Positions 10,017-30,316 of a DNA stretch of 64,000 nucleotides are shown here, one piece after another (position 1 is the stretch's first letter; each line of letters begins with the position of its first letter). The notes under the pieces are model-generated. The model was given only the letters and a program-made list of their open reading frames with translations. It had not been told where the DNA came from and searched no databases. The position numbers and the translations under genes are program-made. This DNA comes from Ignavibacteria bacterium (lineage in GTDB: Bacteria; Bacteroidota; Ignavibacteria; Ignavibacteriales; SURF-24): NCBI GenBank assembly GCA_025612245.1, contig JAAXKQ010000009.1, forward strand, positions 1-64,000, written 5' to 3'.

Positions 10017-10454
10017 TTAATCCTGGTGAGAAGCCATATTCTTGAATATATCCAGGACTTTGTGGAATTCATTGGACTTGTCGAAGAAGTAATTGGCGCC
10101 GGCTTCCATGCAGATTTTTCTATACTGCGGGAATGGGTAGTTTGTAAGTACAATGATAATTGCAGAGTCATTCAGCTGCCGTACACTCTTCAGGACGTCA
10201 ATACCGCTGCCGCCGGGCATACAGATGTCCAGAATGACCGCATCCGGCCTGAGTTCATTAATCTTCTCGATTGAGTCTTGAACGTTCGTAGCTTCTCCAA
10301 CCAGATTAATGCCGTCGATATCAGCAATCATATTAGCCAGCCGGACACGAACAACAGGTGAATCATCCGAAATAAAAACGTTTAATTTATCTGTTTTTAC
10401 ATTGTAACGTGACGTAGAAATAGTTCCTGAATCTATCATTAAATTATTAATCAT
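10017..10454 (-). CDS. Stand-alone response-regulator receiver protein
   Basis: This 145-residue protein is a single CheY-like receiver domain after an N-terminal tail of about 25 residues. It has the acidic pair (FISDDSP), the phospho-acceptor Asp in VILDICMPGGSG, the switch Thr in VLTNYP and the conserved Lys in FFDKSNEF. There is no output domain, so it would work by protein contact or as a phosphate sink. An ATG at 10437-10439 could shorten the tail. It lies 239 nt downstream of, and on the same strand as, a NarL-type regulator and its kinase, and that kinase may be its phosphodonor, which is inference. Confidence 0.85.
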   Translation of the reverse strand: MINNLMIDSGTISTSRYNVKTDKLNVFISDDSPVVRVRLANMIADIDGINLVGEATNVQDSIEKINELRPDAVILDICMPGGSGIDVLKSVRQLNDSAIIIVLTNYPFPQYRKICMEAGANYFFDKSNEFHKVLDIFKNMASHQD

Positions 10455-10693
10455 TTTACTGGTTTTAGGTTTTGCTATACTCTTTCCTGGAATAATTGAT
10501 TAAGATCCTGCCTTTTCTTAGGAAATAAGTTTTATAAGGCAGAAATTCTCCGAACCAACGTTCTTACTATTAATATAGAGGAATTTTCCCCGTCCCGAAA
10601 TCGGAAAATAACTGAATAAGTTGTCAGTATTTGTCCAATTTTCGGGTAAGTCGCAGACCTACAAGAGAAAACGCTAAAACACGGTGAAAAGGG

Positions 10694-11326
10694 CTATTCT
10701 ACGAGCTTATTTTGAATAGCATAGTAGGTCAGTTCCGCATTTGTCTTCATTTTCATCTTTTCCAGCAGCCTGGCCCTGTAAGTGCTGATAGTTTTTACGC
10801 TTAAGGCCAGCTCGTCGGCAATCTGTTTGGCCGTTTTACCGGAGGCAATAAGGCGCATTACCTGGTACTCTCTGTCGGAGAGGGAGTCGTGCAAAGGCCC
10901 TTCAGCCTTCCTTTCAATATCAGCGGCCAGGATTTCAGCCAGTTGCTGGTTGACGTACTTGCCGCCATCCATGACCTTATTTATTGCCTTAATTAGTTCC
11001 TCCGGTGCGCTGTCCTTTGTAAGATAACCTGAGGCTCCGGCTTTAATGGATCGGAGTGCAAACTGGTCCTCAGAGTGCATGGTAAGAACGAGGACGGGTA
11101 AGCGGGGTTTAACTTTTTTAATTTCCTTTAATATATCGAGTCCGCTCATTCCCGGCATAGAAATATCCAGTATAACGACGTCCCATTCCTCTTTATCCAG
11201 CATATCGAGAACTACCTGTCCGTTTTCAGCCTCGCCGCAGATGCATTTGCCCTTGCCTTCAAGAATAATCTGTTTAAGGCCCTGTCTTACGATAGCATGG
11301 TCGTCGCCAATTAAAATTTTAATCAT
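10694..11326 (-). CDS. NarL/LuxR-family two-component response regulator
   Basis: This 210-residue protein has an N-terminal receiver (GDDHAIVRQG acidic pair, phospho-Asp in VVILDISMPGMSG, Thr in VLTMHS, Lys in YLTKDS) and a C-terminal GerE-type helix-turn-helix at about 148-205 (SDREYQVMRLIASGKTAKQI, then ALSVKTISTYRARL). Phosphorylation should drive dimerisation and DNA binding. The ATG overlaps the TGA of the upstream kinase by 4 nt (ATGA), so the two form a coupled pair. GGGGGAG lies just upstream. Target genes are unknown. Confidence 0.93.
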   Translation of the reverse strand: MIKILIGDDHAIVRQGLKQIILEGKGKCICGEAENGQVVLDMLDKEEWDVVILDISMPGMSGLDILKEIKKVKPRLPVLVLTMHSEDQFALRSIKAGASGYLTKDSAPEELIKAINKVMDGGKYVNQQLAEILAADIERKAEGPLHDSLSDREYQVMRLIASGKTAKQIADELALSVKTISTYRARLLEKMKMKTNAELTYYAIQNKLVE

Positions 11327-13758: not shown

Positions 13759-15165
13759 TCAGTTTTCGTAGATCCACTCTTTCTGACGTTTGAGTCTTTC
13801 GTCCAGATGAAACTTCCTGAAGAGTTCAGCCATCTGCTGGCTGTTCTTATGTCCTTCAGTGAGTTTCGTATAGTTTGCAAGCTCATGGAGCATTATGCTT
13901 ACGACAGCAGCAGCCTCAGAGAGCTGTTTTTTATTGACCTTATCAAAATCATCTCCCGAAGTGTGGTAATATTTAACTGCGTCCTCGTCAAGGTGCCCCG
14001 TTAAAGAAAAGGTAGGTATACCTTTGAACATAAATGGTATGTGGTCGCTATTCGTATAAGGCACGCTTACGACCCCGGAAGAAAGGTCGAATCCATTGAG
14101 TGAATTCTTAAGGTTTTCAAAGAAAGGCTTGAACTCATCGAAACCCATGCAATTAAAGCCCCTCGGAGAGCCGGTCATATCCATATTGATCATTGCGGCA
14201 ATCGGTTCCAGGGAGTGCATTTCCGCGTATTTTTTTGATCCCCAGAGTCCGAGCTCCTCGCCGTTAAACCAGACGAAGTCAATTGAAAAGTAGTTTTCGG
14301 AAGAAAAAGTTTTCATCAGGCGTGCAACGTCGAGTAAAATAGCCGATCCCTGCCCGTTGTCGATTGCGCCCTAGCTGATATCCCAGGAATCGAAGTGAGC
14401 ACCAATGACGATCTTATCCTTCACTTTGCCTGGAAGTGAAAAAACAAGATTCCCGGTCTCAACCTCCCTGCAGTATGAATTGGTTGTAAGTTTCATTTCC
14501 GGGTTTTTACCGCTTATGGCGAGTCTTTTTATCCACATGCCTTCCTCATAAGTCAGGCTGTAAGCCGGAATGGGTGAAGCCGTGCCCTGAAAGTTTCCCG
14601 TGCCGGCAAGATTACTCATGCCAGGGTGCTCATTGATAAAAAGAATTGCTTTTGCACCGAGTTCAGCAGCAATATTAATAGCCTCATATCTTAAGATGGG
14701 CTCCTTGCCTTTTGGGGCTTCTGAGCTTACAAGGGCTATTTTACCCTGAATATCAACTCCACTGTAGTCTTCCTTAAAACCGGAGCCCGCAAAGACAACC
14801 TTGGCAGTAAAAGACGGATGTGAGTTGACGTATCCCAGCGCCAGCGCCTGGATATTCCGGAGAAGGGGGGATGTTATCTGCACCTGGTCATTACCTCTAA
14901 TCCAGCCCGGGGCTTTGAAGTGTTCCATTTGGGCATTTATGCCAAGATCATGGAGTTCGCTTTTTAAGATTTCCATGGCTTTTTCGTTCCCGGGAGAGCC
15001 CAGGAGCCTTCCTCCTGCCATGTCGCAGATATTCTCGAATGTCTCGTAGGACCGGTTCTCCAGGAATGCCGAACCCGTAAGCCTGGACCAGGTTTCGTTT
15101 ACCTGGCACTTCAGCGTTGAAAATATGAGAAGAGTGCACGCTAATGGATAGAATGTTTTTTTCAT
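13759..15165 (-). pseudogene. M28-family zinc metallopeptidase interrupted by an in-frame TAG
   Basis: Two open segments lie in one reading frame, separated only by a TAG at 14371-14373. Together they form a complete secreted M28 aminopeptidase/carboxypeptidase Q-like protein of about 467 residues. It has a signal peptide (MKKTFYPLACTLLIFSTL), a PA-domain-like insert, and all metal and catalytic residues: GAHFDSWD, AIDNG, WFNGEELG, INMDMTG and NSDHIPF. The TAG lies between DIS and GAIDNG, where family members commonly carry Gln, so CAG to TAG (a single substitution) explains it. The start was set at the ATG at 15163-15165, not the TTG further up, because it begins the signal peptide. As written, only the first 264 residues would be made, lacking most zinc ligands. 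Confidence 0.85.
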
Positions 15166-15496
15166 TTTTATTCGTCCGCAAATAAAATTACGCAAAAAAT
15201 TAAAATTCCAGCAGAAAATAAGTAAATATTCCGAGTTTGTAAATTTTTACGGGGAAAGCATTTAAGCCGGAAAGTCAGTGCTTTACGAAATTAAAAGCTT
15301 TTATTCCCGGGAAATTTAATAATTGCATGGTACTTTTTCTCTTTTTGTGTGTAGTACCAATAGGGAAACAGGCGTATTTGTATTTGCGTACAGAATTTTT
15401 GACGGTGTTTCGCGCTTACCGGCCGGGTGCGTGGATCTGTGATTAAAACAGGTTTTCCCTTTTTTCGGCTGTTTATTCATATAAATTGGGAGATTG
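15166..15496. other. Divergent intergenic region, M28 peptidase / surface block
   Basis: 331 bp between a minus-strand and a plus-strand gene, so it should hold both promoters. It contains small palindromes (AAAAGCTTTT near 15293, TTCCCGGGAA near 15305). A TTGACG is present near 15398, but without a matching -10 at the right distance. No gene is supported. Confidence 0.4.
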
Positions 15497-17644
15497 ATGC
15501 AGATGAAAAAATTCTACACCTTGTTCTTTTTGGCCCTCATCTCCACTTTGTTAAATGCCCAGACATTAAAGTGGGAGTGGCAGAATCCAAAACCTCATGG
15601 CAATGACGTTAATGACGTTAAATATTTAGGAAAAGATACAGTTATTGCTGTTACAAACGCTGGTTATGTCCAGAAAAGCATTGACGGTGGAAATAGCTGG
15701 AGCGTAATTAAGGCAGACACGAGTTCCAGGGACATACTTTCTGTATATTTCTGGGATGCAAATAAAGGAATTCTTTGCGGAAACGCCGGCCTTTTGATGG
15801 AAACCAAGGATGCCGGACTTAGCTGGAGTTATCTTAACTCGGGTGCAACTGACGACCTTTACAACGTCAAATTTGTGGATTCCGACACAGGATATGTTGC
15901 TGCCGGTAAAGGTACCCTCCTGAAGACCATAGACGGTGGAAAGACCTGGAGCTCGTCAAATTTAGGTTCAAGCACCAACTATAAAGTGTTTATTGTCAAT
16001 GCTTCGGATATTTTCCTGGGAACGGGTACTACGGGTAAAAAACTTGTAAGATCGGTTGACTATGGAAAGACATGGACAAATGTTGCTCCAAGCACTATGA
16101 CAAATAATGTTTATTCCATCGCTTTTACAGACTCGCTGACCGGATTTTTCGGCAATTCCAACGACGACATTTATAAGTCGAAAGACGGCGGGCTTACCTG
16201 GACTAAAAAAGGCGGCACGGCATCGAGCATAAACATAAACGACATCTATTTTACCGACAAGGCAAACGGATATGCTGTTGACGCCAAAGGCAACTTCTTT
16301 TTTACGTCTGATTCCGGTGAAACCTGGACGAACAAAAAGGTTCCTTATCAGAAGTTCAACGCCCTTGACGGCGATGCGAGCGTGCTTTATGCTGCAGGCG
16401 TTGCAGGTACAGTACTTCAGAGTAAAGACAAGGGAAATAGCTGGGATCAGAAGTACTCTTCAATTACACAGCAGTATCTGCGCCAGGTTACATTTGTTGA
16501 TGAAAAAACGGGTTATACCTGCGGCGGTTCCACGGTTGCTGCAGACAGCCTTGGTTTCATACTCAAGACCACTGACGGCGGAGCAAACTGGAGTGTGTTA
16601 TCCGATCAATTCAAGTACATGATTTATGCATTTGCAATGCCTACAGCCGACATCTGGTGCGCTGCCGGAACCGGTAACTCCATATTCCGCTCTGTTGATG
16701 CCGGAAAGACATGGACAAAAATTTCAAGCCCGGTAACAGGCGTTGCTACAATGGTATTTTATGCAATTGCTTTTGCCGATAAGGATACCGGCTATGCTGT
16801 CGGTAATGCAGGTAAGGTAATCAAGACAACTGACGGCGGGCAGACATGGACAAATCTTACAACCGGTCTCGCATCATCAAATGCCGTATGGGATCTGGCA
16901 GTATTTAATGGAAAGACGGTAATTATCAGCGCTTCATTGGGTAAGGCCTTAAAAACTGTTGACGGCGGTCAGACCTGGGAAACACTGGCTCCGAATATTG
17001 CAGGAAGCCTGTTCTCAACTAAGTTCAAGGATGCCTCAACGGGTTATATAACCGGCGGCTCAAAAACACTTACAAGAACTTCTGACGGCGGAAAGACCTG
17101 GACCGCAATGGATCTTCCGGCCAGCCTTTCTTCTTCTGCTGCCATCTGGGGTGCTGCATTTGGAAAAGATGCCGACTGGATAATCTCAGGAAACGGCGAC
17201 ATCTGCTACTCGGCAGACAGCGGTAAAACATGGCAGGTTGCTCCGGCAATGACTTCTTCAACCCTGATTGACATTGCTTCTTTTGGTGATAACATCTGGA
17301 TCGTTGGAAACAACGGCACAATTTTACATGGAAGCCCAAGCGATCCTTCTGCAGTTGAAGATGGAAAGCCCTCAGTTGTTAAAGATTTTGCCCTTGCACA
17401 GAATTATCCAAATCCTTTCAATCCGAGCACTACAATCAGGTACACTGTTCCATCTGAAGGAATGGTAAGCCTGAAGGTTTACAACCTGATAGGAAAGGAA
17501 GTTGCTCAGCTTGTTAATGAAAGCCAGGCGGCCGGAACACATTCTATACAGTTTGACGCTTCCAAGCTCTCAAGCGGAATTTATTTCTATGAGCTTAGAA
17601 CGGGCAGCAATGTTGCAGCTAAGAAGATGATTCTTATTAAGTAA
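15497..17644 (+). CDS. Secreted Ycf48-like Asp-box propeller protein with type IX sorting domain
   Basis: This protein has about 715 residues. A signal peptide (MKKFYTLFFLALISTLLNAQ) is followed by many repeats of the Asp-box type with DGGxTW, SKDGGLTW or SVDAGKTW cores, expected to fold as one or two beta-propellers like Ycf48/BNR proteins. Residues from about 630 form a type A T9SS C-terminal domain with QNYPNPFNPSTTI, then SSGIYFYEL and a final KKMILIK. The family use of that domain is export through the type IX system and surface attachment or release. The propeller's ligand is unknown. The start is ATG 15497 or ATG 15503, both behind GGGAG. It heads a same-strand block with the TonB receptor and ends at a clear terminator. 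Confidence 0.88.
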   Translation: MQMKKFYTLFFLALISTLLNAQTLKWEWQNPKPHGNDVNDVKYLGKDTVIAVTNAGYVQKSIDGGNSWSVIKADTSSRDILSVYFWDANKGILCGNAGLLMETKDAGLSWSYLNSGATDDLYNVKFVDSDTGYVAAGKGTLLKTIDGGKTWSSSNLGSSTNYKVFIVNASDIFLGTGTTGKKLVRSVDYGKTWTNVAPSTMTNNVYSIAFTDSLTGFFGNSNDDIYKSKDGGLTWTKKGGTASSININDIYFTDKANGYAVDAKGNFFFTSDSGETWTNKKVPYQKFNALDGDASVLYAAGVAGTVLQSKDKGNSWDQKYSSITQQYLRQVTFVDEKTGYTCGGSTVAADSLGFILKTTDGGANWSVLSDQFKYMIYAFAMPTADIWCAAGTGNSIFRSVDAGKTWTKISSPVTGVATMVFYAIAFADKDTGYAVGNAGKVIKTTDGGQTWTNLTTGLASSNAVWDLAVFNGKTVIISASLGKALKTVDGGQTWETLAPNIAGSLFSTKFKDASTGYITGGSKTLTRTSDGGKTWTAMDLPASLSSSAAIWGAAFGKDADWIISGNGDICYSADSGKTWQVAPAMTSSTLIDIASFGDNIWIVGNNGTILHGSPSDPSAVEDGKPSVVKDFALAQNYPNPFNPSTTIRYTVPSEGMVSLKVYNLIGKEVAQLVNESQAAGTHSIQFDASKLSSGIYFYELRTGSNVAAKKMILIK

Positions 17645-17734: not shown

Positions 17735-20413
17735 ATGCATAAATTCATCTCTATAATATCTTTGCTTCTGGCGCTTTTCGCCACCTCATCAGCCCAGAGC
17801 GGCTTTACAACCATTAAAGGAAAAGTTACCGATGAGAAAGGCGATGCGCTATCATTTGCCAACGTTGTACTGAAAGAAACCAACAACGGCTCCGTTACGG
17901 ATAATAACGGCAACTACAGCATTCTGGCAAAGCATGGCATTTACACAATTGAAGTATCCTTTGTTGGATACGATAAAGTCTCTGAAAAAGTCACTCTGGA
18001 AGGAAAAACGCTCGAAAAGAATTTCCGCCTTAAAAGCACCTCGTTTCTTATCGGGGGCATTGAGGTTGTAGCCAACAACGAGTTTATTCCTGTCAGGCCT
18101 GAGACAAAAACAACGGTTTCATCGGGTGAAATCGAGCACATACAGGCGGCAAGCCTGAATGACGTGATGAAACTGACGCCCGGAGTGGAAACCACTAACC
18201 CAACGCTAAACGGCGTCGAGAAGGCTACCATCAGGGGCGGCGACGCACTTGGCACACAGATCGTTCTGGACGGCATCCCCGTTACAAACAACGCAAACAT
18301 GCAGGTCGGAATTGGTTATTCAACGGCCAATAGCGGAATTGATCTAAGATCCATCCCGGCCGAGAATATAAAGGAAGTCGAAATCATTCGCGGCATTCCT
18401 TCAGCGCAGTACGGCGACCTGGCAGACGGCCTGATGATTGTAAAAACAAAGTCCACCGCAGAACCCTTCCGCGCAAAGTACAAGTATAATCCGCAGATTA
18501 ACGAGCTTAATTTCAGCGGCGGCCTGCCCTGGGGAGACTGGATCTTTAATACTAACCTGAACCTTGCCTCTTCAGACAGGGACATAAGAATTGAAGGAGA
18601 CGGGTATACCAGGATTGCCGGACAGGTATCAGCCGAAAGGGAAACCGGCGAGTACAGCCTTAAGAACATTTTTTATGTCACGCGTTCAATTGACGAAAGC
18701 AAGGAAAAACCCGAGTACGCTTCCAGAGAAGCCTGGTATAACAGGGACCTTAACCTCAAGTACACAGGTAATTTCAGCAGGACGTTCTCTTCATTCAGCA
18801 GCTTTAACCTGGATGTCTCAGCCTCATATACCAGGCAGAACTCACACAATCAGCAGATCGTCTCACGCGATAACGTCGTCATTACAGACCAGACTATGGA
18901 AGGAACCGTACCCGGAAGAATAGTATTCGGATCCTACCTGGGAGAAAAATGGATAAAAGGCGACGTATGGAACCTTTATGCCGATGCAAACTACAACTTC
19001 CGTTTCTTTACAGATGAGTTCCTTCACAGCTGGGTTGCCGGCATTAACTGGAGAGACGACTTCAATAAAGGCGCGGGAATTATCTTTGACCCCCTTTATC
19101 CTCCTTCGGCTACAATTCCTGCTCCGAGGCTGAGGAGCTACGACGAGCTTCCGCAGTATAACATCGTAAGCCTTTATGCAGAGGACAGGATCACAGGCAG
19201 GTTTATCAGACCCTTTACACTGCAGGTCGGGCTAAGATATGAAGTCTACCGCCCGGACGGGTTCGACATTAAAGGGCTATGGGGAAAGGGAGACCTGATT
19301 AAATCCTATAACGGAAGCTTCGCCAATCCGAGGATTAACTTTTCATTCAGTATTTCTGAAAACACACAGCTGCGCCTTAGCTACGGCGTAACCTCGAAGG
19401 CTCCGCCAATGGGAATGATATTTGCCCAACAGAAGTATTACGACATCGTAGACACGGTCTCTGTTGTTAACCCGGCATATGCCGACAGCAACTTTGCGCT
19501 TATTTCAACATACATACGCCCCCAGGCAAATGAATACCTCAAGGGCTACACACAGAAAAAGTACGAGGCCAGCCTTGACCAGCAGTTTACCTTTGGCGGT
19601 ATTACAATGACGGGATACTTCAATAACTCGGAGAACATGTTCCAGAGCTTGAATGAGCCAACTGTATTCTACAAGAAATCCTTTCCTTCGTGGCCGGACG
19701 AATCGCAGAGCTTTGTCAGGGATTCGGTGCTCGACAGCTATTCATCTTACCAGAACAATGCCTGGGAAAAGGTGCGCGGAATTGAACTTTCTTTCCGGAG
19801 CAGGAAGATACCTGTCATAAACACAATCTTTAAGTTCGACGCCTCGTACAGCTATCAGGAAGACGGAAGCCGAAACGGGTATTATTTCTCGACTGCCCGC
19901 TTCAGTGACGCACTTGGAATACGCGTTATACCAATGTATAACGATGTTGAGAATTTTAATAAAAGACTTCTTCTTAACTATCGTTTTGAAATCCAGACCA
20001 AGTCACTCGGGATGTGGATTACGCTTCACATTCAGCAGCTTGCAGTTGACATCGACGGAAGACGAAACTATGCAGATACTCTTGCAGTCGGATACTTTAC
20101 ACAGAAAGGCGAACTCATCAGAATTCCCGAGTCGGAAAGGGGCAGCGAAAAATACCTTCAGCTCAGGCGCAGCATTGAGTCCTTTGAGCTTAATGACGAG
20201 GACAGGCCGAACAAGTGGCTCTTGAACCTGAAGGTATCAAAGTCGCTCTGGGATGGCGCCTCGGTTTCTTTCTTTGTGAATAATTTCCTGAATAACCAGC
20301 CTTTATATAAAAGCAGAAGGCGTTCACCTGATTATCCGTCATACGAAAGAAGAAATCCAGATATATACTATGGCATTGAATTCAGTACTGCACTGGGAGG
20401 TACGGCAAAATGA
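17735..20413 (+). CDS. TonB-dependent outer-membrane receptor with CarboxypepD_reg domain
   Basis: This 892-residue protein has a signal peptide (to about 20, ATSSAQSG), a carboxypeptidase-regulatory-like beta-sandwich at about 25-105 (GKVTDEKGDALSFANV), a plug domain at about 115-235 (LNDVMKLTPGVETT, VLDGIPVTNNA, EIIRGIPSAQYGDLADG), then a long beta-barrel. The transport substrate is unknown. It is not a SusC, since it lacks the usual length and a SusD partner. The stop overlaps the ATG of the lipoprotein gene, and the outer-membrane barrel follows. The three look like one operon, so the lipoprotein is a likely partner for ligand capture at the cell surface. No strong Shine-Dalgarno sequence precedes ATG 17735. 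Confidence 0.9.
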   Translation: MHKFISIISLLLALFATSSAQSGFTTIKGKVTDEKGDALSFANVVLKETNNGSVTDNNGNYSILAKHGIYTIEVSFVGYDKVSEKVTLEGKTLEKNFRLKSTSFLIGGIEVVANNEFIPVRPETKTTVSSGEIEHIQAASLNDVMKLTPGVETTNPTLNGVEKATIRGGDALGTQIVLDGIPVTNNANMQVGIGYSTANSGIDLRSIPAENIKEVEIIRGIPSAQYGDLADGLMIVKTKSTAEPFRAKYKYNPQINELNFSGGLPWGDWIFNTNLNLASSDRDIRIEGDGYTRIAGQVSAERETGEYSLKNIFYVTRSIDESKEKPEYASREAWYNRDLNLKYTGNFSRTFSSFSSFNLDVSASYTRQNSHNQQIVSRDNVVITDQTMEGTVPGRIVFGSYLGEKWIKGDVWNLYADANYNFRFFTDEFLHSWVAGINWRDDFNKGAGIIFDPLYPPSATIPAPRLRSYDELPQYNIVSLYAEDRITGRFIRPFTLQVGLRYEVYRPDGFDIKGLWGKGDLIKSYNGSFANPRINFSFSISENTQLRLSYGVTSKAPPMGMIFAQQKYYDIVDTVSVVNPAYADSNFALISTYIRPQANEYLKGYTQKKYEASLDQQFTFGGITMTGYFNNSENMFQSLNEPTVFYKKSFPSWPDESQSFVRDSVLDSYSSYQNNAWEKVRGIELSFRSRKIPVINTIFKFDASYSYQEDGSRNGYYFSTARFSDALGIRVIPMYNDVENFNKRLLLNYRFEIQTKSLGMWITLHIQQLAVDIDGRRNYADTLAVGYFTQKGELIRIPESERGSEKYLQLRRSIESFELNDEDRPNKWLLNLKVSKSLWDGASVSFFVNNFLNNQPLYKSRRRSPDYPSYERRNPDIYYGIEFSTALGGTAK

Positions 20414-21618
20414 AAATAAATTCAATTATGAAAAGAAAATTGTTGGCACAAAGGTTAATCGCGTTTTCCGCCCTAATTTTAGTACTCATTGTCTCCGGGT
20501 GCGACGGCCTTTCGGAAATGAAACCTTCCGCACTTGAAAGGGGGGCGGACTTTAAGATTGTGCTCGTTGATTCAAGCGGGTACATGCAGAAACTCTACGG
20601 CACAAACCGGGTTGCCAACGCTGCGGTAACGCTCAAATCAAATACGCTTGGAACTACATACCAGGCCACCTCAGACGCAGAGGGCGTGGTAAGCCTGAAA
20701 GGACTCATTTCCGATGAGTACCACATATCGGTAATAAGGCAGATGAGTCCCGATGAAATGGAACTGGTTACTGGCAATAAAGCCTACGGATACAAGCTTG
20801 TAAATAAGAAGGCCGGGACGATACACCTTAAGGCCGATTCTCCTGAGGCCGGCGAAGTTTATCTTGATCCGGTCTTCAGCGGTTCGGCTCTTTTGATCAG
20901 CGAGATTTATTCAAGCGGACCCTCTGGTTCAGGTAATTATTATCACGACAAGTATGTGGAGATATTCAACCAGAGCGATTCTACGGTTTACCTTGATAAG
21001 ATAATTGTTGCGCTCGTCTATAGCAGCAGCGTTAATGGGCTAAATTACGTAAATGACCCCGAGTACATACACAGCATAAATATCTGGAAATTCCCCGGAT
21101 CGGGGAAAGACTATCCCATCAGGCCCGGGCAGTTTGTGGTTTGCGCCGAGGATGCAATGGACCACAGGACAAACGCACCAAACTCGGTTGACCTGTCGCA
21201 TGCAGACTTTGAATTCTACAAGGATGACGCTCCGGACGTTGATAACCCCGCAGTGCCGAACATGGTAAGAATATTCCAGAACGCCGGAAACGACTGGCTA
21301 ATGGGGGGCGAACTGGGAGCAATTGTAATTGCGCGTATGGAAACAAAGGACCTTAAGACATACGACGACCAGATGCTAATTCCATATTCTGCCATACTCG
21401 ACGGTGTGGAATATATGAAGGACCCTTCGAAACTGGATAAGAAAATCCTGAACCGTTCCATTGACGCGGGAACCACCGGAGGCATCCAGTTCTATACGGG
21501 TAAATCCATGGAAAGAGTTATTATGAACCTTACGGGAGGATTTAAGCTTCTGGACAACAATAATTCATCGCTTGATTTCAGGGTTATCGATCACCCGACA
21601 CCCAAGTACCACTATTAA
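20410..21618 (+). CDS. Surface lipoprotein, DUF4876-like, partner of the TonB receptor
   Basis: This 402-residue protein has a lipoprotein signal (hydrophobic stretch ending VLIVSGC, Cys about residue 31). A domain at about 40-140 resembles a carboxypeptidase-regulatory/SpaA-like sandwich (VANAAVTLKSN, DAEGVVSLKGL). It is followed by a region starting SALLISEIYSSGP with KYVEIFNQSDSTVYLD, which resembles a lamin-tail-type beta sandwich. This arrangement matches what I recall of DUF4876 proteins found next to TonB receptors in Bacteroidota. The family assignment is from memory and unverified. The ATG overlaps the receptor's TGA by 4 nt. The role, probably ligand binding on the outer membrane, is inferred. 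Confidence 0.7.
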   Translation: MKINSIMKRKLLAQRLIAFSALILVLIVSGCDGLSEMKPSALERGADFKIVLVDSSGYMQKLYGTNRVANAAVTLKSNTLGTTYQATSDAEGVVSLKGLISDEYHISVIRQMSPDEMELVTGNKAYGYKLVNKKAGTIHLKADSPEAGEVYLDPVFSGSALLISEIYSSGPSGSGNYYHDKYVEIFNQSDSTVYLDKIIVALVYSSSVNGLNYVNDPEYIHSINIWKFPGSGKDYPIRPGQFVVCAEDAMDHRTNAPNSVDLSHADFEFYKDDAPDVDNPAVPNMVRIFQNAGNDWLMGGELGAIVIARMETKDLKTYDDQMLIPYSAILDGVEYMKDPSKLDKKILNRSIDAGTTGGIQFYTGKSMERVIMNLTGGFKLLDNNNSSLDFRVIDHPTPKYHY

Positions 21619-21633: not shown

Positions 21634-23166
21634 ATGAAGAATATAAAATATATTTTATCACTGCCCGTGCTGATACTGCTTATGACGAAAAACCTAAGCG
21701 CGCAGGAGTTATACAGCCCGGGGCAGTTTTTCAAAACTATTTTTGAATCAGGCAGCAACGTCAACTCCTATTATATTGGGGGGAACCCAGCATTCCTGAA
21801 ATGGGAAAACGAGAACAAAGAGCAGCTCCTTTCTATTCAGTCCTCTTACCAGAACGAAGACGGAGCTTTCCATAAGTTTATCGAGCCCGCTACCAACAGG
21901 CTCTACCAGGTGATGGCTACGGGAAGAAAGGACATTGATTCTTCGCAGGTCTTCAAGGGAAGCTTTGGCTTCGAGAGGCAGGAACGCCGTAACTGGAGCT
22001 GGCTTGTTACAAAGAATTATTCAATAATGAACCCGTTCCTCTTTGGCGACAGCACGACAGGCAATACTCATTATAACGGGATTATAATGAATGCACAGTA
22101 CGGAGCTGAGGTATGGAAGGGACTCCTTGCGGGCTTCGAAGTAAACTATGCGGTTGACCAGGGCTTAAAGGAAGTGGCCCCGAGGCCCACTTCGGACCAC
22201 CGCGATATAATGTTTAAACTCGGCCTGGGCTACCGGGTAACCGATAATCTGTCAATAGGTGCCGTGGGAAAATTCTACGACTACAATGAAGAGATAAGCT
22301 ATAAAGAGGATGAAGGGGCAGTTGCAAAGGAAATTTTACTCCTTAAGTTCAAAGGCTACGATTTTCCGTTTACAAACAAGAAGAAGACCGAAGAACGTTT
22401 CTCATACCAGAACGGAGCCTTCGGATACTTTACGGTTTCCTACAAAACTCCCGGCTTTTCCGTTGCAGCATACGCCGGAGGAGGCCTTGAGCAGCTTACG
22501 ATTAAAGAAGATGCGCTTGACCCGAGAAGGCAGGGCTACTGGAAGAATAGCACAGTTGAAGCGGCCCTGCAGTCTTCCATAGATTTAAGTAAGGATCTGA
22601 AACTGGGGCTTTACTATGAGTTCAAAAATGAAGACATGTGGGCAAGGCATCCGGAGTATGAGGTCCTTATGATGGAAAACAGTTCCCCGAGCCACCTCGT
22701 TGCCTCCGGGCTTCAGTACGTACTCAGTCCTGCTGCAACTCTTGGGCTTGAGGCCGGAGCTTCAAGACAGTCCTATGACTACAAGGATTACTACAGCGCC
22801 CTAAGCTGGGCAACGAAAGGAGTCGAGGCATTTGCCTCAGCCGGAGTTAATATGAGGTGGAGCAGGCTTTTCAGCACCTTTATCTCGTACCGCTTCAGCA
22901 ACTTTGCAGCCGACGACTCAAAGCTTACGGTTTCTGAGCCTTCAGCCTACTTTACGGACTACAGGCTGAAAGACATCGCTTTCTATCAGACTGATTTCAG
23001 GCAGCAGACCGGGAACTTCTGGCTTAGGGTTGAGCCCGGAACGTGGGGACTAATTAGCCTGAAAATATCCTACAGCAATAAAAAGGCAATGGACGACGTT
23101 GTATTCAGCAGCCTTAAAAGAGACGACTTTACTTCCTGCCTGGAGCTCAGGCTCAAGGTTTACTAG
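21634..23166 (+). CDS. Outer-membrane beta-barrel protein, possibly DUF6850-like
   Basis: This 510-residue protein has a signal peptide (to about 24, KNLSAQE). The rest is rich in aromatic and alternating residues typical of a large outer-membrane barrel, ending in the strand SCLELRLKVY. There is no plug or TonB box, so it is not a TonB receptor. It begins 16 nt after the lipoprotein gene and is surely co-transcribed with the receptor and lipoprotein. Bacteroidota loci with TonB receptor, DUF4876 lipoprotein and a DUF6850 barrel in this order fit the pattern, but the DUF6850 label is tentative. No enzymatic motif is visible. Confidence 0.65.
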   Translation: MKNIKYILSLPVLILLMTKNLSAQELYSPGQFFKTIFESGSNVNSYYIGGNPAFLKWENENKEQLLSIQSSYQNEDGAFHKFIEPATNRLYQVMATGRKDIDSSQVFKGSFGFERQERRNWSWLVTKNYSIMNPFLFGDSTTGNTHYNGIIMNAQYGAEVWKGLLAGFEVNYAVDQGLKEVAPRPTSDHRDIMFKLGLGYRVTDNLSIGAVGKFYDYNEEISYKEDEGAVAKEILLLKFKGYDFPFTNKKKTEERFSYQNGAFGYFTVSYKTPGFSVAAYAGGGLEQLTIKEDALDPRRQGYWKNSTVEAALQSSIDLSKDLKLGLYYEFKNEDMWARHPEYEVLMMENSSPSHLVASGLQYVLSPAATLGLEAGASRQSYDYKDYYSALSWATKGVEAFASAGVNMRWSRLFSTFISYRFSNFAADDSKLTVSEPSAYFTDYRLKDIAFYQTDFRQQTGNFWLRVEPGTWGLISLKISYSNKKAMDDVVFSSLKRDDFTSCLELRLKVY

Positions 23167-23207
23167 GAACTTTTATATATAACAGAACTAACTTGAAAAG
23201 AGGTAAA

Positions 23208-25415
23208 ATGAAAAAATCCATACTTATAATAATTATGCTTGTTTCAGCCTCCATCCTCCGGGCTCAAAGCTGGAAGGTGGTTTCATCGCCCGATCTGAAG
23301 CAGGCGGCAAGCGATATATACTTCGTTTCTGAAGACGAGGGCTGGATGTCGGCCGATTCAGGAGTGGTATATCATACCACAAACGGCGGACTGAACTGGA
23401 GCCTTCAGAATACAAACGTGGTAAAAAATCTCAAGAAGATTTTCTTTCTGGACAGTAATAACGGCTGGATCGGTACTGCCGATGGAAGCATCCTTATAAC
23501 CAAAGACGGCGGGAAGTCGTGGACCGAAAGCATTTTTGCCGGACTCGTACCCAATATAAAGTTTACATACTTTGATGCCATCTGCTTTACCAGCTCCACA
23601 AAGGGTTTTATAGTTGCAGGAAAGGACAAGGCTATCTACCTCTTTATGACTACTGACGGCGGCATGAACTGGGTAAAGAAAGACTCCCTGACCGGAACTG
23701 TATCGCAGAGGTGGTACGACATCTCCTTTGCAGACGCCAATAACGGCGTAATTGCCGGAGACAAAAAGACCAACATTAAATACACAACAGACGGGGGCAC
23801 TACGTGGAATTCTTCTCCCATTACAGACCAAATGTTCGGCGTAATTAAGTCGGTCAGATGGCTGAGTTCAAAGGATGTAGTCCTTATGGGCGAAGGCAAC
23901 GACTTTACCGGCCTACCGTGCCCGGTCTATAAATCCGCTGATGGCGGCAAGACCTGGGTCAAGAAAGCTACGGGTTCTTTCGACAGGGTAAAGGATTCAT
24001 ACTTTAAGAATTCCCTGGAAGGAATTTGCGCCGGCAGTAACGGCTTCAGCAAAATGTTCTATATGAAGACATCCGACGGCGGTGAGACGTGGACACCCCT
24101 TATGGGAAACTTCTCCGTTGGACTGCAGGCCGTTACGGGCTTTAATAACGTTCTCTATGCACTCGGAACGGACAACCATATCTTCAAATCCACAGACTTC
24201 GGTTCAACGTGGAGCATTTTTCCTATGAAAGCTCCTTCTGCAATATATGCCATTCAGTTTAAGGGTGGTAAAGGTTATGCCTTAAGCCGTTATAGCGACG
24301 TCTACAAAAATGAGGATGGTACGGGTAAGAGCTGGAACTTTGCCTCATCGGCAGGTGTCTGGGAGGGTTATTCCATGTCGTTTATTGACCCTTCGGTAGG
24401 ATTTGTGCTGAAAGAAAACAGGCACATCGTTAAGACTACAGACGGCGGCAAGACCTGGGTCTCAGTTCTGGATGCCGTGGACTACAACACCAAGAATAAG
24501 CTCGGAGGCATTGCGTTTCCGGACGCACAGACGGGATATGCATGGATGAGCTTAGATGACTATGCGCAGTATCACGTATTTAAGACGGCTGATGGCGGCA
24601 GTACGTGGAATGAAATTCTGAATATACCGGGACCGAGTATCATAGACGGCAGTATACAGTTTTTTGATGCCTCGACCGGAATAATTGCGGGCCCCAAGGG
24701 CTGGATTATTAGAACCACCGACGGCGGAACGAAGTGGGATACGGTTCAAGTAAGCAACGCTCCTTCTACACTTAAAGCTAGCGCCTTCCAGGAAGTGTGC
24801 ATAGCCGGGCAAAACGCCTGGGCAATTAGTGAAAAGGCAATTTATTTCTCTTCAGACAAAGGCGCTTCATGGAACTATATAGATCATGGAATTAAAAACA
24901 TCGATACAACTTTCTATACCGTTTCTTTCCGCAGTGACGGCACGGGGTATGTTAGCTGCTATGACGGATCAATACTCAAAACTACTGACTCGGGCAAAAG
25001 CTGGCAGTTGGATGAAAGCCTGAAGGGGAAATATCACTTTTACTCTTCTGCCTTTGATGAAAGCGGCAGGATATACTTTGGAACCTCGAACGGCTTGATT
25101 GTTACTCTTGAGGACCAGTTGGGAGTAGATGAGAAGGAAATTGCCAGCCCGAAGGGCTTTGCACTTGAACAGAATTTCCCGAATCCTTTTAACCCGGTAA
25201 CTTCAATAAGATTTACAATTCCGGTAGGCGGAATGGTAAGCCTTACGGTCTATGACATTCTTGGGCGCGAGGTAAGCGTTCTGGCTAGCGGCTTCTATAA
25301 GGCAGGTTCGCAGACCTTGAGCTTTGATGCCAGCAGGCTTTCAAGCGGAATTTACTATTACCAGTTAAAGGCTGGAGCTTTTACGCAGACCAGGAAAATG
25401 ACGGTTTTGAAATAA
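23208..25415 (+). CDS. Second secreted Ycf48-like propeller protein with type IX sorting domain
   Basis: This protein of about 735 residues starts at ATG 23208, which follows AAAAGAGGTAAA and opens a signal peptide (MKKSILIIIMLVSASILRAQ). An in-frame TTG 15 nt upstream is less likely. It has repeated Asp-box cores such as TNGGLNW, TKDGGKSW, TTDGGMNW and TADGGSTW, and a C-terminal type A sorting domain from about 650 (EQNFPNPFNPVTSIRF, SSGIYYYQL). It is a paralogue of the protein at 15497 in architecture, though the repeats differ. It lies 41 nt after the barrel gene with no terminator between, so it may belong to the TonB receptor operon. Its surface location is inferred from the sorting domain. 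Confidence 0.87.
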   Translation: MKKSILIIIMLVSASILRAQSWKVVSSPDLKQAASDIYFVSEDEGWMSADSGVVYHTTNGGLNWSLQNTNVVKNLKKIFFLDSNNGWIGTADGSILITKDGGKSWTESIFAGLVPNIKFTYFDAICFTSSTKGFIVAGKDKAIYLFMTTDGGMNWVKKDSLTGTVSQRWYDISFADANNGVIAGDKKTNIKYTTDGGTTWNSSPITDQMFGVIKSVRWLSSKDVVLMGEGNDFTGLPCPVYKSADGGKTWVKKATGSFDRVKDSYFKNSLEGICAGSNGFSKMFYMKTSDGGETWTPLMGNFSVGLQAVTGFNNVLYALGTDNHIFKSTDFGSTWSIFPMKAPSAIYAIQFKGGKGYALSRYSDVYKNEDGTGKSWNFASSAGVWEGYSMSFIDPSVGFVLKENRHIVKTTDGGKTWVSVLDAVDYNTKNKLGGIAFPDAQTGYAWMSLDDYAQYHVFKTADGGSTWNEILNIPGPSIIDGSIQFFDASTGIIAGPKGWIIRTTDGGTKWDTVQVSNAPSTLKASAFQEVCIAGQNAWAISEKAIYFSSDKGASWNYIDHGIKNIDTTFYTVSFRSDGTGYVSCYDGSILKTTDSGKSWQLDESLKGKYHFYSSAFDESGRIYFGTSNGLIVTLEDQLGVDEKEIASPKGFALEQNFPNPFNPVTSIRFTIPVGGMVSLTVYDILGREVSVLASGFYKAGSQTLSFDASRLSSGIYYYQLKAGAFTQTRKMTVLK

Positions 25416-25473: not shown

Positions 25474-27699
25474 ATGAAAATGAAATTACGTTTTATTGTT
25501 TTAACTTTTCTGTTATCTGCATTTTGCGCGCGCGCAGAGGTGATAATAAAAAAGCCGGTTAAGAAGAACCCTACTTCATTTGCCATTATTGTCGACAAGG
25601 TGACATATGACAGGATAGGAAGCGCAGTTGACACATACAGGGACGCCGTGGAAAATGACGGCCTTTCGGCTTATATACTCATAAACAACTGGAAGAATCC
25701 CGATGAAATCCGCTCCGAGATACTGAAGCTCTATAACAGCAAGCCTCAGCTCGAAGGGATTGTTCTTATTGGCGACATACCGATACCCATGGTAAGAAAC
25801 GCGCAGCACATGACTTCAGCCTTCAAGCTGGATGAAAATGCGGCCATGTATAAGTCCTCAGTCCCAACGGACAGGTTTTATGACGATTTCGACCTGAAGT
25901 TTAAGTACATAAGTCACGACACGCTGCACACACTCTGTTACTATTATTCACTCTTGCCGGACTCACCGCAGAGGGTAAGCAAGGATATTTACAGCGGGCG
26001 CATCAAGGCTCCGGTCGAGGACGATTCTAAGTATGAAATAATTAAGGACTATCTTCTTAGGGTCTCCGAGCAGAAGAAAAAGCAAAACCTGCTCGATAAG
26101 ATGCTCGTCTTTACCGGTCACGGCTACAACTCGCAGGCTCAGACCGCCTGGAGTGATGAAAACCTGGCCTTGCGCGAACAGTTGCCATGGCTTTATGACA
26201 ACACGGGCGGAAAGCTGAAAAAACTCAATTTCAGCATGAGTACGGAAATGAAAGAGATTCTTCTTTCAGAGCTTCAGCAGCCAGGACTGGATATGGCTGT
26301 TTTTCACGCGCATGGGGAAATTGACAGGCAGTACCTTATAGACTATCCAAATCCTTCAAACCCCAGCGGACAGATTGAATCCGTAAAGCTTTATTTAAGG
26401 AGCAAGCTCAGGAGTGCAAAAAGAAGGAAGATGTCGATCGACGAGGGAAAGAAATACTTCGTAAAACAGTATGACGTTCCCGAACGGTGGATGGAAAATG
26501 CATTCTCGGATTCTCTGCAGAAGGCCGATTCACTCCTGGATTACAGCCTGGACCTTCACGTCGAGGACGTTAAAAATATCGCCCCAAGCCCTGAACTGGT
26601 AATTTTTGACGAATGCTTTAACGGCTCATTTCACCACAGTCCATATATTTCTGGCGAATATGTCTTTGGAAAAGGGCAGACAGTTGCAGGCATTGCAAAC
26701 ACTACAAATGCCCTTCAGGACCAGTGGATAGACTCTTTTATGGGTCTTTTAGGCTACGGACTGAGGTTCGGGCAGTGGCACAGGATGGATAACCTTCTGG
26801 AAAGCCACCTGATTGGCGATCCCACGTTCCATTTCAGCCCTGTTGTTGACAAAGACTTAAGCCGTACGATAGTTCTCAAGGCAAAGGACGTGAAATTCTG
26901 GGAGAAGATGAGTAAAAGCGGAGATGTTAACCTACGCTCCCTGGGTATATATATGATGTTTAAGAACCTGGGGTCAAAATATGAGAAGGAACTTGTAAAT
27001 ATTTATAAGAAGGATGCTTCGTTTAACGTGAGGATGCACGCACTTGAGGCCCTTGCCGTATTGAACAGCCCTGCCTTTGAAGATATTCTTAAGATATCAA
27101 TTAACGATCCTTACGAGTTAATAAGAAGAATATCGGCAGAATGGATGGGCAAGGTAGGAAAGAAGGAATACGTGCCTTTGATGGTAAAGCAGATGTTTGA
27201 GGATGAATCCGAAAGGGTATCCTACAACGCCAAGTCAAACGTTGTTTTTATTGATCCTGACCTGGCATACAATGAATGCCTGAAGTACATAGAAAGCCTG
27301 CCTTCTACGGTAAACAAGGAAAAGATGAAGGATGGGATAAAAATTTCCATGTTAAATTCCTCAAAGTGGCTGAATGATGAATTGATTCCTAATGTAAAAA
27401 GTGATACTTTAGCGACCAAGCAAAAGCTGAAAGAGATTAGGACGTTCAGGAATTATAATTACATACAGGCACTGCCGGTCCTGCTTGGCATTATGGAAGA
27501 TAAAAAGGAGCCAAAAGAGATCAGAAAAGCGGTTCTGGAAGCTCTGGGCTGGTATGCATTTGCCTATAACAGGGATACGATTATTAAGGCCTGCGATGAG
27601 TTGATAAAGAGGGAAGATACGCCGGTTGAGGTAAAGGAAGAAGCTTTGCGGACTAAAAACAGGCTGCTTGAGGGCTACAGCAATCCGATTACCTCCTGA
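25474..27699 (+). CDS. Clan CD (gingipain-like) cysteine peptidase domain fused to HEAT repeats, copy 1
   Basis: This 741-residue exported protein has a signal peptide to about 21 (FCARAE). The N-terminal half contains LEGIVLIGDIPIPM and a probable catalytic pair: His280 in VFHAHGE after a hydrophobic strand, and Cys381 in VIFDECFNGSF. The C-x-N-G-x-F pattern resembles gingipain R. His216 in FTGHG is another candidate, but copy 2 lacks it. The His-Cys spacing of about 100 residues is much longer than in gingipains. Residues from about 460 are helical HEAT-like repeats (SFNVRMHALEALAVL, DPYELIRRISAEWMG). No type IX sorting domain is present, so a periplasmic location is likely. No propeptide boundary is obvious. 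The function is unknown. The start ATG 25474 is 58 nt after the propeller gene. Confidence 0.7.
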   Translation: MKMKLRFIVLTFLLSAFCARAEVIIKKPVKKNPTSFAIIVDKVTYDRIGSAVDTYRDAVENDGLSAYILINNWKNPDEIRSEILKLYNSKPQLEGIVLIGDIPIPMVRNAQHMTSAFKLDENAAMYKSSVPTDRFYDDFDLKFKYISHDTLHTLCYYYSLLPDSPQRVSKDIYSGRIKAPVEDDSKYEIIKDYLLRVSEQKKKQNLLDKMLVFTGHGYNSQAQTAWSDENLALREQLPWLYDNTGGKLKKLNFSMSTEMKEILLSELQQPGLDMAVFHAHGEIDRQYLIDYPNPSNPSGQIESVKLYLRSKLRSAKRRKMSIDEGKKYFVKQYDVPERWMENAFSDSLQKADSLLDYSLDLHVEDVKNIAPSPELVIFDECFNGSFHHSPYISGEYVFGKGQTVAGIANTTNALQDQWIDSFMGLLGYGLRFGQWHRMDNLLESHLIGDPTFHFSPVVDKDLSRTIVLKAKDVKFWEKMSKSGDVNLRSLGIYMMFKNLGSKYEKELVNIYKKDASFNVRMHALEALAVLNSPAFEDILKISINDPYELIRRISAEWMGKVGKKEYVPLMVKQMFEDESERVSYNAKSNVVFIDPDLAYNECLKYIESLPSTVNKEKMKDGIKISMLNSSKWLNDELIPNVKSDTLATKQKLKEIRTFRNYNYIQALPVLLGIMEDKKEPKEIRKAVLEALGWYAFAYNRDTIIKACDELIKREDTPVEVKEEALRTKNRLLEGYSNPITS

Positions 27700-28033
27700 A
27701 AAAGTTTAGTACAGTTTTAATTTTTTTTCTACTCACGATTACTACGTTCAATACCCCGGGATCCGGTCAAACGGGTTCCGGGAATAATAGACTTTCGCCG
27801 GGACTTTTCGCAAAACATAAAGCCAGCTAATCTCGAAAAACAATTGTGCAGGCATTGAGCATTTGGATAATATTAGCCAATAATAATTTTATAAATAAAA
27901 CCAAACATCCTTTTATGAACTAAAATCAAACTTTTATCAGATGGCATTCCAGTTGCGGTCTTTACACTGAGTGATTATGTATAAATATTAGCCGTGTTGA
28001 TATTTGATGATAAGACCAGGTAGAAAAGAGAAG
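27700..28033. other. Intergenic region between the two peptidase-HEAT genes
   Basis: 334 bp without a supported gene. It has a poly-T run at about 27719-27728 just after copy 1, and an imperfect GC-rich hairpin (CCCGGGATCCG / CGGGTTCCGGG, 27755-27782) without a T-tail. It probably carries a promoter for copy 2, but I cannot name one. The length suggests that copy 2 is regulated separately. Confidence 0.4.
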
Positions 28034-30256
28034 ATGAAGATAAAATTATTGTTTATCGTTTTGTTAATAGGCAATGTGCTCCTTTATGCAAGGCTTGACA
28101 TAAAAAAGCCGAATAAGGAGTATGCCACTTCATTTGCGATTATTGTTGATGAAAAGACCTACAATAAGACGAAAGATGCCATTCTAGCCTACCGCGATGC
28201 CGTTGAGGAAGACGGACTTTCAGCTTATGTTCTGGCCGAGGACTGGAAATCGCCCGATGAAATCAAAGAAGAGATCCTGAAGCTCTACAACCAGAAGCCA
28301 CAGCTTGAAGGCGTAGTATTTATTGGCGACATCCCGATCCCGATGCTCAGGGATGCCGAACATCTTACCTCTTCGTTCAAATACGAGAACAATCCGTCGG
28401 ATTATTACAACTCTTCGGTTCCATCTGACCGTTTTTACGATGATTTTAACCTGAAATTCAAGTTCCTGCACCAGGATTCCAGGCATCCGCTCTGCTATTA
28501 TTATTCTCTTCTGCCGGATTCACCACAGAAAGTAAATAAGACAATCTACAGCGCCCGAATAAAGCCTTCGGTTGATGATGAAAGCAAGTATACGCTCATC
28601 AATCAGTATTTAATGCGCGTCGTAAAGCAGAAAAAAGAGCAGAATAAACTGGATAACATGCTGGTCTATACAGGCTACAGGTATTTTTCCGAATCTCTCA
28701 ATGCCTGGGGCGACGAGCAGCTTTCCTTGAGGGAAGAATTCCCGCAGGTCTTTAAGACCGGCGGAAGGCTGAAAAAATTAAACCATACAATGAGCCCCTA
28801 CATGAAAGGGATACTGCTCAGCGAAATTCAGGATCCAAAGCTGGACTTTGCGATCTTCCATGCTCATGGCGATGACAACCTCCAGAGCCTGATCGACTAT
28901 CCGAAGTCAAATGACATTGACGACAATATTGAAAGCATAAAGCTTACCTTAAGAAAAGAGCTCCGCGAGGCCCGCCGCAACGGCCAGAATACAGAGGAAA
29001 AGATGGCTGACCTGAAGGGCGACTACAACGTTCCGGACAGCTGGTTCGATGGAGCTTTTGATCCGAAGGTTACGGCGGAAGATTCACTGCGCGACTATAA
29101 AATGACTATCTATGGAGACGACATCAGGAAGATATCCCCCCAGGCAAAGTTAATTCTTTTTGATGAATGCTATAATGGCGCTTTTCATACGAGTCCATAT
29201 CTTGCAGGCGAGTACGTATTTGGTTATGGTGCTACAATTGCAGGAATTGCAAACAGCACAACTACGCTTCAGGACCAGTGGGCAGAGGAGTTCTCGGGTG
29301 TGCTGAATTATGGCACCAGGGTAGGCCTCTGGCACAAGATGAACAATGTACTGGAAAGCCACCTGTTTGGCGATCCGACGTTTCATTTTTCTACAATTGA
29401 TCCCAGGGTTAACCTTAACAGCATGCTTACCACAGGCCTAAGCGACGAGGCTTCCTGGGAAAGGATGAGGTACCTGGAAGAGCCATCACTTCGTGCTCTT
29501 GCTCTCAGGATGCTCTTTAAGATTAAGGGCGCCTCCTACGAGGGAGAGCTATTAAGCGCCTACAGGACGGATGAATCTTTCAACGTGCGCCTCCAGGCTT
29601 TGACCGCTCTGGCAGAATTAAACACTCCTTCATTCCAGGGGGTTTTGAAAGAGTCGATTCAGGATCCATTTGAATTTATCAGGCGCGTATCTGCGGTATG
29701 GATGGGCAAGGTTGGAAACCGCGATTATCTTTCGATTATGGCAAAGCAGCTCGTAACAGACGAGTCGGAAAGGGTGATCTTCGATCTGAAGAAATCGATA
29801 GCCTTTATCGATCCGGTTGCAGGGTACGAAGAGCTGGAGAAGTCCTTAAGCCAGATGCCGGATGCAGCAGATAAGGACAACTTAAGAGAGATGATGAAAG
29901 GATCGATCCTGAATTCAAGTGATCACCTGAACAAGGAGCTGCTCCCAAATATTAAGAACGATTCGCTCAGGATAAGGAAAAAAGTAAAGGAGATAGAGTC
30001 ATTGAGAGTATATAATTACATACAGGCGGTGCCGGAACTTTTGCAGCTTGCACAAAACAGCAGGGAAGACGTGGCCATTAGGGTGGCAACGCTGGAGGCC
30101 TTGGGATGGTATGCGCTTTCAAACAACAGGGATGCTATTGTAAGGGTATGCGATGAAATTATAAACATGGCCGGAACTCCTGATCAGGTTAAAGAGGAAG
30201 CCTTAAGAACGAAAAACAGGATAAAAGAAGGGTTTAACAATCCTGTAACCTCATAA
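28034..30256 (+). CDS. Clan CD (gingipain-like) cysteine peptidase domain fused to HEAT repeats, copy 2
   Basis: This protein has 740 residues from ATG 28034, chosen because it aligns with the start of copy 1 and opens a signal peptide (MKIKLLFIVLLIGNVLLYAR). Upstream in-frame TTG 28004 and ATG 28007 add an unlikely charged tail. It is collinear with copy 1 over the whole length: LEGVVFIGDIPIPM, His278 in IFHAHGD, Cys379 in ILFDECYNGAF, and HEAT-like repeats from about 460 (SFNVRLQALTALAEL). The gingipain-style TGHG of copy 1 is TGYR here, which points to FHAHG as the true catalytic His site. The C-termini also match (RTKNRIKEGFNNPVTS). It is a clear tandem duplicate and ends at a strong bidirectional terminator. 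Confidence 0.7.
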   Translation: MKIKLLFIVLLIGNVLLYARLDIKKPNKEYATSFAIIVDEKTYNKTKDAILAYRDAVEEDGLSAYVLAEDWKSPDEIKEEILKLYNQKPQLEGVVFIGDIPIPMLRDAEHLTSSFKYENNPSDYYNSSVPSDRFYDDFNLKFKFLHQDSRHPLCYYYSLLPDSPQKVNKTIYSARIKPSVDDESKYTLINQYLMRVVKQKKEQNKLDNMLVYTGYRYFSESLNAWGDEQLSLREEFPQVFKTGGRLKKLNHTMSPYMKGILLSEIQDPKLDFAIFHAHGDDNLQSLIDYPKSNDIDDNIESIKLTLRKELREARRNGQNTEEKMADLKGDYNVPDSWFDGAFDPKVTAEDSLRDYKMTIYGDDIRKISPQAKLILFDECYNGAFHTSPYLAGEYVFGYGATIAGIANSTTTLQDQWAEEFSGVLNYGTRVGLWHKMNNVLESHLFGDPTFHFSTIDPRVNLNSMLTTGLSDEASWERMRYLEEPSLRALALRMLFKIKGASYEGELLSAYRTDESFNVRLQALTALAELNTPSFQGVLKESIQDPFEFIRRVSAVWMGKVGNRDYLSIMAKQLVTDESERVIFDLKKSIAFIDPVAGYEELEKSLSQMPDAADKDNLREMMKGSILNSSDHLNKELLPNIKNDSLRIRKKVKEIESLRVYNYIQAVPELLQLAQNSREDVAIRVATLEALGWYALSNNRDAIVRVCDEIINMAGTPDQVKEEALRTKNRIKEGFNNPVTS

Positions 30257-30270: not shown

Positions 30271-30316
30271 AAAAAAGGCCGGACAATTCAGCGATGAAGT
30301 ATCCGGCCTTTTTTTT
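30271..30316. terminator. Strong bidirectional terminator
   Basis: AAAAAAGGCCGGA (30271-30283) and TCCGGCCTTTTTTTT (30302-30316) form a 13-bp stem with A- and T-runs on either side. It serves the peptidase-HEAT gene on plus and the AhpD-like gene on minus, whose stop codon lies at its edge. Confidence 0.9.

Follow-up and report, generated by a model that had tools for sequence, protein, structure and literature searches.

What two adjacent, exported HEAT-repeat proteins might do at the end of a receptor operon is the question raised by a 64,000-nucleotide stretch (hereafter the window) of contig JAAXKQ010000009.1 from an Ignavibacteria bacterium. An initial annotation, made from the DNA alone, had noted in both proteins two motifs, FHAHG and DEC[FY]NG[SA]F, reminiscent of the clan CD peptidases of family C25, which include the gingipains.

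Domain organization and predicted fold of the tandem proteins

Copy 1 (25474..27699, forward strand) encodes a protein of 741 residues comprising a signal peptide (residues ∼1-21), a predicted gingipain-fold domain (∼30-460) and HEAT repeats (∼470-735). Copy 2 (28034..30256, forward strand) encodes 740 residues counted from the ATG at 28034, with the earliest in-frame TTG at 28004. The two adjacent copies are homologous over their full length, sharing 54% identity, and both motifs are present in each, with a spacing of 101 residues. Inspection of the codons assigns the histidine of FHAHG to position 280 in copy 1 (26311..26313, forward strand) and 278 in copy 2, and the cysteine of DECFNGSF (copy 1; 26614..26616, forward strand) and DECYNGAF (copy 2) to positions 381 and 379, respectively. 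The TGHG of copy 1 (residues 213-216) is TGYR at the same place in copy 2, in agreement with the loss proposed previously. Both proteins, and nearly all of their homologues, carry a Sec-type signal but no lipobox, and are thus likely to be periplasmic. The C-terminal half, described in the initial annotation as HEAT-like, matches the Pfam profile HEAT_2 in both copies (E 4.6e-11 and 7.3e-16; 43.3 and 58.7 bits, with the cut-off at 27.7), and helices spanning residues 485-733 are modelled as an α-solenoid, which together place both proteins among HEAT-repeat proteins. Profile searches (TIGR04183/PF18962) detected no type IX (T9SS) C-terminal sorting domain on either protein, as had been reported, while the YCF48 neighbours have one. 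The C-terminus of copy 1 (27660-27699) is a short tail, N-x-x-[VIM]-[TLN]-P/S, conserved in homologues outside Bacteroidia and modelled with low confidence.

Sequence searches with the catalytic domain (Pfam, NCBIfam, and phmmer and hmmsearch against the PDB) returned HEAT and chance matches only. The Pfam C25 profile, PF01364, did not match 11 members of the family (the window proteins and nine relatives), and its best score among the remaining members was 13.0 bits (L151) against a cut-off of 23. An AlphaFold model of the domain, built on 24 relatives (mean pLDDT 84.7, pTM 0.85), was aligned by VIA-align most closely with the gingipain RgpB (1cvr; Z 28.7, rmsd 2.9, 298 residues, 18% identity), followed by a second RgpB structure (4ief; Z 28.5) and Kgp (4rbm and 6i9a; Z 27.5 and 27.1, respectively). 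Beyond the gingipains came separase (Z 15.8), SAVED-CHAT (13.5), Csx29 (12.6) and caspase-6 (8.4). An independent full-length model also placed gingipains first (Z ∼20). As both gingipain subdomains are matched structurally, the N-terminal domain is predicted to have the gingipain fold, which supports the resemblance to clan CD and C25 that the motifs had suggested. Foldseek leads were set aside: the full-length model retrieved HEAT proteins only and the domain model ranked unrelated Rossmann proteins on top; with the same candidates VIA-align put the gingipains clearly first. In the domain model the His and the Cys directly follow strands E253-257 and E354-357, respectively, which are successive strands (3 and 4) of the caspase-like sheet; structure prediction, recommended in the initial annotation as a check on the dyad, is therefore consistent with a catalytic pair. 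The Cys loop is modelled with low confidence in the full-length protein and with higher confidence in the domain alone. The other recommended check, an HMM comparison with C25, gave a divided answer. Although PF01364 stayed under its cut-off, profile-profile alignment with C25 domains from the same bacterial family yielded collinear blocks, Cys on Cys (P 0.001-0.004 each), which were not joined across the region between the two motifs. Family-level homology to C25, judged by sequence, is thus marginal. We therefore classify the proteins, termed here C25-HEAT, on the basis of the models as proteins with a predicted clan CD, C25-like peptidase fold and HEAT repeats, and keep them out of family C25 because they conform neither to its profile nor to its His-Cys spacing of ∼33.

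None of the 116 homologues, which come from several phyla, departs from His280, Gly281 and Cys381, and the same is true of Gln415, Asp416, Asp449 and Pro450; Asn383 and Gly384 are kept in 115. The dyad is retained by every tandem copy, and a homologue without one of its residues, which the initial annotation had regarded as evidence against a peptidase, was not encountered in this set. The invariance of His280 and Cys381 shows that the motif pair is not a chance occurrence. The two residues are separated by 95-105 positions in the 116 homologues (101 in 72 of them), compared with ∼31-37 in true C25 domains of related bacteria, and a helical insert of ∼68 residues is therefore a fixed feature of the family. 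This region (residues ∼290-370 of copy 1; 26341..26583, forward strand), previously described as a charged helical insert, is indeed modelled as helices linking the strands that precede His280 and Cys381. It is conserved in length and evolves rapidly, the identity between copies 1 and 2 being 34% within the insert and 60-63% in the flanking catalytic parts. TGHG was ruled out as the source of the catalytic histidine, as many intact copies lack it and it sits after strand 1, whereas His280 is invariant. The loop after strand 1, which contains TGHG in copy 1, differs by copy type. In caspases the equivalent loop helps to shape the S1 pocket, and it is thus possible that the copies differ in specificity.

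The receptor operon and its distribution

The C25-HEAT genes are the last of a forward-strand operon. A TonB-dependent receptor with a carboxypeptidase-regulatory-like domain (17735..20413; Pfam CarbopepD_reg_2, Plug and TonB barrel), whose orthologue heads the operon in related loci, overlaps by 4 bases the gene for a DUF4876 protein (20410..21618; PF16215, 1e-30), a predicted lipoprotein with the lipobox LIVSGC. These genes are followed by a DUF6850 family member (21634..23166; PF21012, 4.7e-35), named an outer-membrane β-barrel by RefSeq in B. finegoldii, and by a YCF48-like protein with a T9SS type A sorting tail (23193..25415). A terminator-like hairpin with a T run, read directly from the DNA (GGCCGGA...TCCGGCCTTTTTT; 30277..30314, forward strand), closes the operon. 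Upstream of the receptor is a further YCF48-like β-propeller with a T9SS type A tail (15494..17644, forward strand; Pfam PSII_BNR 2e-49, Por_Secre_tail 1.5e-12); a YCF48 gene in this position is frequent in related Ignavibacteria loci, and the membership of this copy in the operon is uncertain. On the reverse strand, one in-frame TAG (DIS*GAIDNG) interrupts the gene for an M28-type aminopeptidase (13759-15195) that neighbours the operon; the close relative G001 has no stop at this point, and the TAG has the appearance of a point nonsense mutation.

A contig search with one protein recovered 0 relatives, while an alignment query recovered 239; weak matches (L066-L079 and L048/L050) were rejected as unrelated HEAT proteins, M1 peptidases included. 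C25-HEAT genes stand at the end of such an operon in about a hundred bacteria, the conserved order being TonB receptor, DUF4876, DUF6850, an optional YCF48/T9SS protein and one to three C25-HEAT copies. In a first context set the operon was present, whole or in part, at 17 of 17 loci; in G097 the C25-HEAT gene borders the end of its contig. Upstream sequence of at least 4.5 kb was available for 64 of 79 named loci, and in 59 of these the TonB, DUF4876 and DUF6850 genes precede C25-HEAT on the same strand; three of the five others have DUF4876 and DUF6850. In a phylum sample of 296 genomes, all seven full-length carriers fall within the 29 that contain DUF4876 (hypergeometric p 4e-8, ignoring kinship; the operon statistics in general take no account of shared ancestry). 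The genome context, which the initial annotation had also suggested examining, thus links C25-HEAT to TonB/DUF4876/DUF6850 across Ignavibacteria and beyond. Two loci are arranged differently: L095 (Ignavibacterium) contains an ECF-like gene, YCF48 and C25-HEAT with no receptor genes upstream, and in L151 (Pedobacter metabolipauper) C25-HEAT lies upstream of the receptor.

Carriers include Ignavibacteria, Bacteroides, Prevotella, Alistipes, Pedobacter, Butyricimonas, Neomarinimicrobiota, KSB1, Calditrichota and Delongbacteria. The view that this architecture had not been described holds for Pfam, NCBIfam and the literature searched, but the architecture itself is common and extends to human gut Bacteroides, where records call it 'HEAT repeat domain-containing protein' or 'hypothetical protein'; it is present in 14 of 69 sampled near-complete genomes of Bacteroides species. 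In a quick tree with SH-aLRT support only, the copies of Bacteroidales, often three, form one clade per copy type, and the two copies in the window represent a separate duplication in Ignavibacteria. A 12.2-kb block containing the whole operon (L154 and L158, ∼243-12398) is shared at 99.97% identity by B. xylanisolvens and a Butyricimonas strain, which belongs to another family, indicating recent horizontal transfer; near-identical copies occur in other Bacteroides. In-frame stops in the C25-HEAT matches of three Bacteroides contigs (G760:C66, G800:C3 and G773:C5) suggest that some tandem copies may be decaying in certain members of the genus. NZ_OY725920.1 (L200/L201), called plasmid 18 of B. 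finegoldii, holds rpmF, era, der, clpP/clpX, tig and guaB, and thus resembles a chromosomal fragment bearing an inserted element rather than a plasmid.

Sister operons, iron and a candidate role in import

The position of the C25-HEAT genes at the end of this conserved operon points to the processing of imported material, and displaces the earlier conjecture that they mature secreted or surface proteins of the neighbouring block. We propose, with a probability of roughly 0.57, that C25-HEAT proteins act in the periplasm as the processing peptidases of an operon for TonB-dependent import. In concert with the surface lipoprotein (DUF4876) and the barrel (DUF6850), the TonB receptor would bind and import a protein or peptide ligand, perhaps an iron-carrying protein. 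Once TonB-driven import had delivered the ligand to the periplasm, the HEAT solenoid would capture and hold it, and the His280-Cys381 site would cut it, freeing a useful part that is most likely iron or a metal cofactor. This proposal draws on the fold match, the invariant dyad, the export signal and the conserved operon described above, and on the replacement of the enzyme in sister operons described below.

The peptidases could instead act on the products of their own operon, trimming or activating the receptor, DUF4876, DUF6850 and the YCF48/T9SS protein, as PorU trims T9SS cargo, and leave the imported ligand untouched. Such a role would be consistent with the shared operon and compartment, with the T9SS tail of the YCF48 partner and with the genuine C25 enzyme in these genomes, which matches PorU (L018; PDB 6za2, E 3e-46). 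It is unlikely, however, as C25-HEAT is present in operons that have no YCF48 gene (those of Bacteroidia and of most Neomarinimicrobiota), many genomes have the receptor, DUF4876 and DUF6850 but no C25-HEAT, and three copies with diverged loops in the pocket region fit varied substrates better. A role tied to the T9SS/YCF48 partner in particular is weakened by the many operons without YCF48. PorU, the T9SS sortase, resembles C25-HEAT in being an exported C25-type peptidase, but has a high Pfam C25 score, no HEAT repeats and no such operon.

Processing of an imported ligand is suggested by DUF4876 operons that end in other enzymes. A second such operon in the same genome (L169; G000:C15:22000-41000) has the order ECF sigma, FecR, TonB, DUF4876, DUF6850, YCF48, M28 and M16. 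The M28 plus M16 ending recurs in L197 (no ECF gene detected) and L198, while L195 has M28 and L199 has M16 alone. Six operons of other Bacteroidota (L177, L181, L184, L187, L189 and L191) end in a di-haem cytochrome c peroxidase (CCP_MauG). Near many other DUF4876 operons there is no gene for a peptidase or a peroxidase, which counts against the proposed role. In proteobacterial clusters related to the ferredoxin uptake system (Fus), the receptor is similarly accompanied by the M16 peptidase FusC or, in multiple cases where this is absent, by a cytochrome c peroxidase (PMC6793856). This parallel is the main reason to read C25-HEAT as an import-processing enzyme.

Fus systems (FusA-FusC and YddB-PqqL) are an earlier example of an outer-membrane receptor that works with a periplasmic peptidase (PMC6071955, PMC6793856), and are linked to iron (PMC6793856). 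A dedicated exported peptidase is likewise encoded in the receptor operons studied here, C25-HEAT in the window and M28 with M16 in the second DUF4876 operon of this genome. The window operon differs in its DUF4876 and DUF6850 partners, in its occurrence in the FCB group rather than Proteobacteria, in its receptor and in its C25-like cysteine peptidase. The receptor scores 17.8 bits against the PqqU model (cut-off 1200), placing it outside the FusA/PqqU subfamily. The receptor operon of the window itself contains no M16 (FusC-type) peptidase, and the M16 gene at 32456, behind an aminotransferase and outside the operon, is of the housekeeping type. As neither the receptor subfamily nor the peptidase family corresponds, we do not class the operon with the Fus systems, although it may work like one.

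Transcript data connect related operons to iron. In B. thetaiotaomicron, BT1933-39, annotated as hypothetical proteins, a HEAT repeat domain-containing protein, DUF4876 and a TonB receptor, is induced 3.5-7.4 fold under iron depletion, and in P. gingivalis PG1019-22 (DUF4876, a TonB receptor and hypothetical proteins) is induced 20.8-214.5 fold (PMC10434189). Both loci share DUF4876 and the TonB receptor with the window operon, and the former also a HEAT protein; they were reported as transcripts only, with no peptidase recognized there (PMC10434189). From annotation wording and gene order, rather than sequence, we infer that BT1934-37 are C25-HEAT genes. The B. finegoldii operon, which RefSeq annotates in the terms used for BT1933-39, is ordered there as TonB receptor, DUF4876, DUF6850 barrel, hypothetical, HEAT repeat and hypothetical, and an iron ABC transporter lies ∼7 kb upstream of its receptor. 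Within the window no E. coli-type Fur box was found; in a Bacteroidota-type genome this absence counts only slightly against the proposed role.

Many ligands enter through TonB receptors, and the processed cargo might be a nutrient other than iron, a peptide or a cofactor bound to a peptide, in place of an iron protein. We take the E. coli receptor assigned to PQQ import to be the former YddB. An E. coli receptor once grouped with Fus was later treated as a PQQ importer, which makes the prediction of cargo unsafe (PMC12124388). Cargo of this kind is nevertheless quite improbable here, given the induction of the B. thetaiotaomicron and P. gingivalis operons by iron depletion (PMC10434189), the FecR/ECF pairs upstream of sister operons and the iron transporter near the B. 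finegoldii operon. That the proteins keep the fold and dyad and serve mainly as a clamp or scaffold with little or no proteolysis, as HEAT solenoids being binding modules, an insert that could cover the active site and the low confidence of the loops around the Cys in the first model might suggest, is very improbable, as the catalytic motifs keep their His, Gly, Cys, Asn and Gly with little or no exception across 116 sequences and in every tandem copy, while pseudo-enzymes usually lose such residues.

Relation to other clan CD proteins and significance

Among characterized peptidases, the gingipains RgpB and Kgp are closest to C25-HEAT, sharing the two-subdomain fold (Z 27-29 over 298-300 residues), the strand-HisGly and strand-Cys arrangement, the C-x-N-G-x-F pattern and a GDPT block near the domain end. 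C25-HEAT differs in its wider His-Cys spacing, its helical insert, HEAT repeats in place of Ig/CTD, the absence of a T9SS tail and its invisibility to PF01364. Two further secreted proteins, L012 and L015, have a gingipain-like N-terminal subdomain apparently without the HG and Cys motifs, and are possibly inactive C25 relatives. Separase and the CRISPR-associated Csx29/TPR-CHAT, among the next best folds, also place a caspase-like protease domain beside an α-solenoid, although these proteins are cytosolic, their solenoid is N-terminal and the fold match is much more distant.

Taken more broadly, and tentatively, the DUF4876/DUF6850 operons could constitute an unnamed class of protease-associated TonB import systems in Bacteroidota and related phyla, importing metal-bearing proteins or peptides and equipped with interchangeable enzymes (tandem gingipain-fold HEAT proteins, M28 plus M16, or di-haem peroxidases), with the C25-HEAT type spread between gut Bacteroidales by horizontal transfer. 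C25-HEAT represents a predicted gingipain-fold peptidase family that profile libraries miss and that is hidden across several phyla under the names 'HEAT repeat' and 'hypothetical'. With it, clan CD would gain a further solenoid-linked branch beside separase and Csx29, in this case a periplasmic one. If the proteins do process imported ligands, they would form a Bacteroidota counterpart of the Fus iron-piracy system, and would account for what the DUF4876/TonB loci induced by iron depletion in B. thetaiotaomicron and P. gingivalis do.
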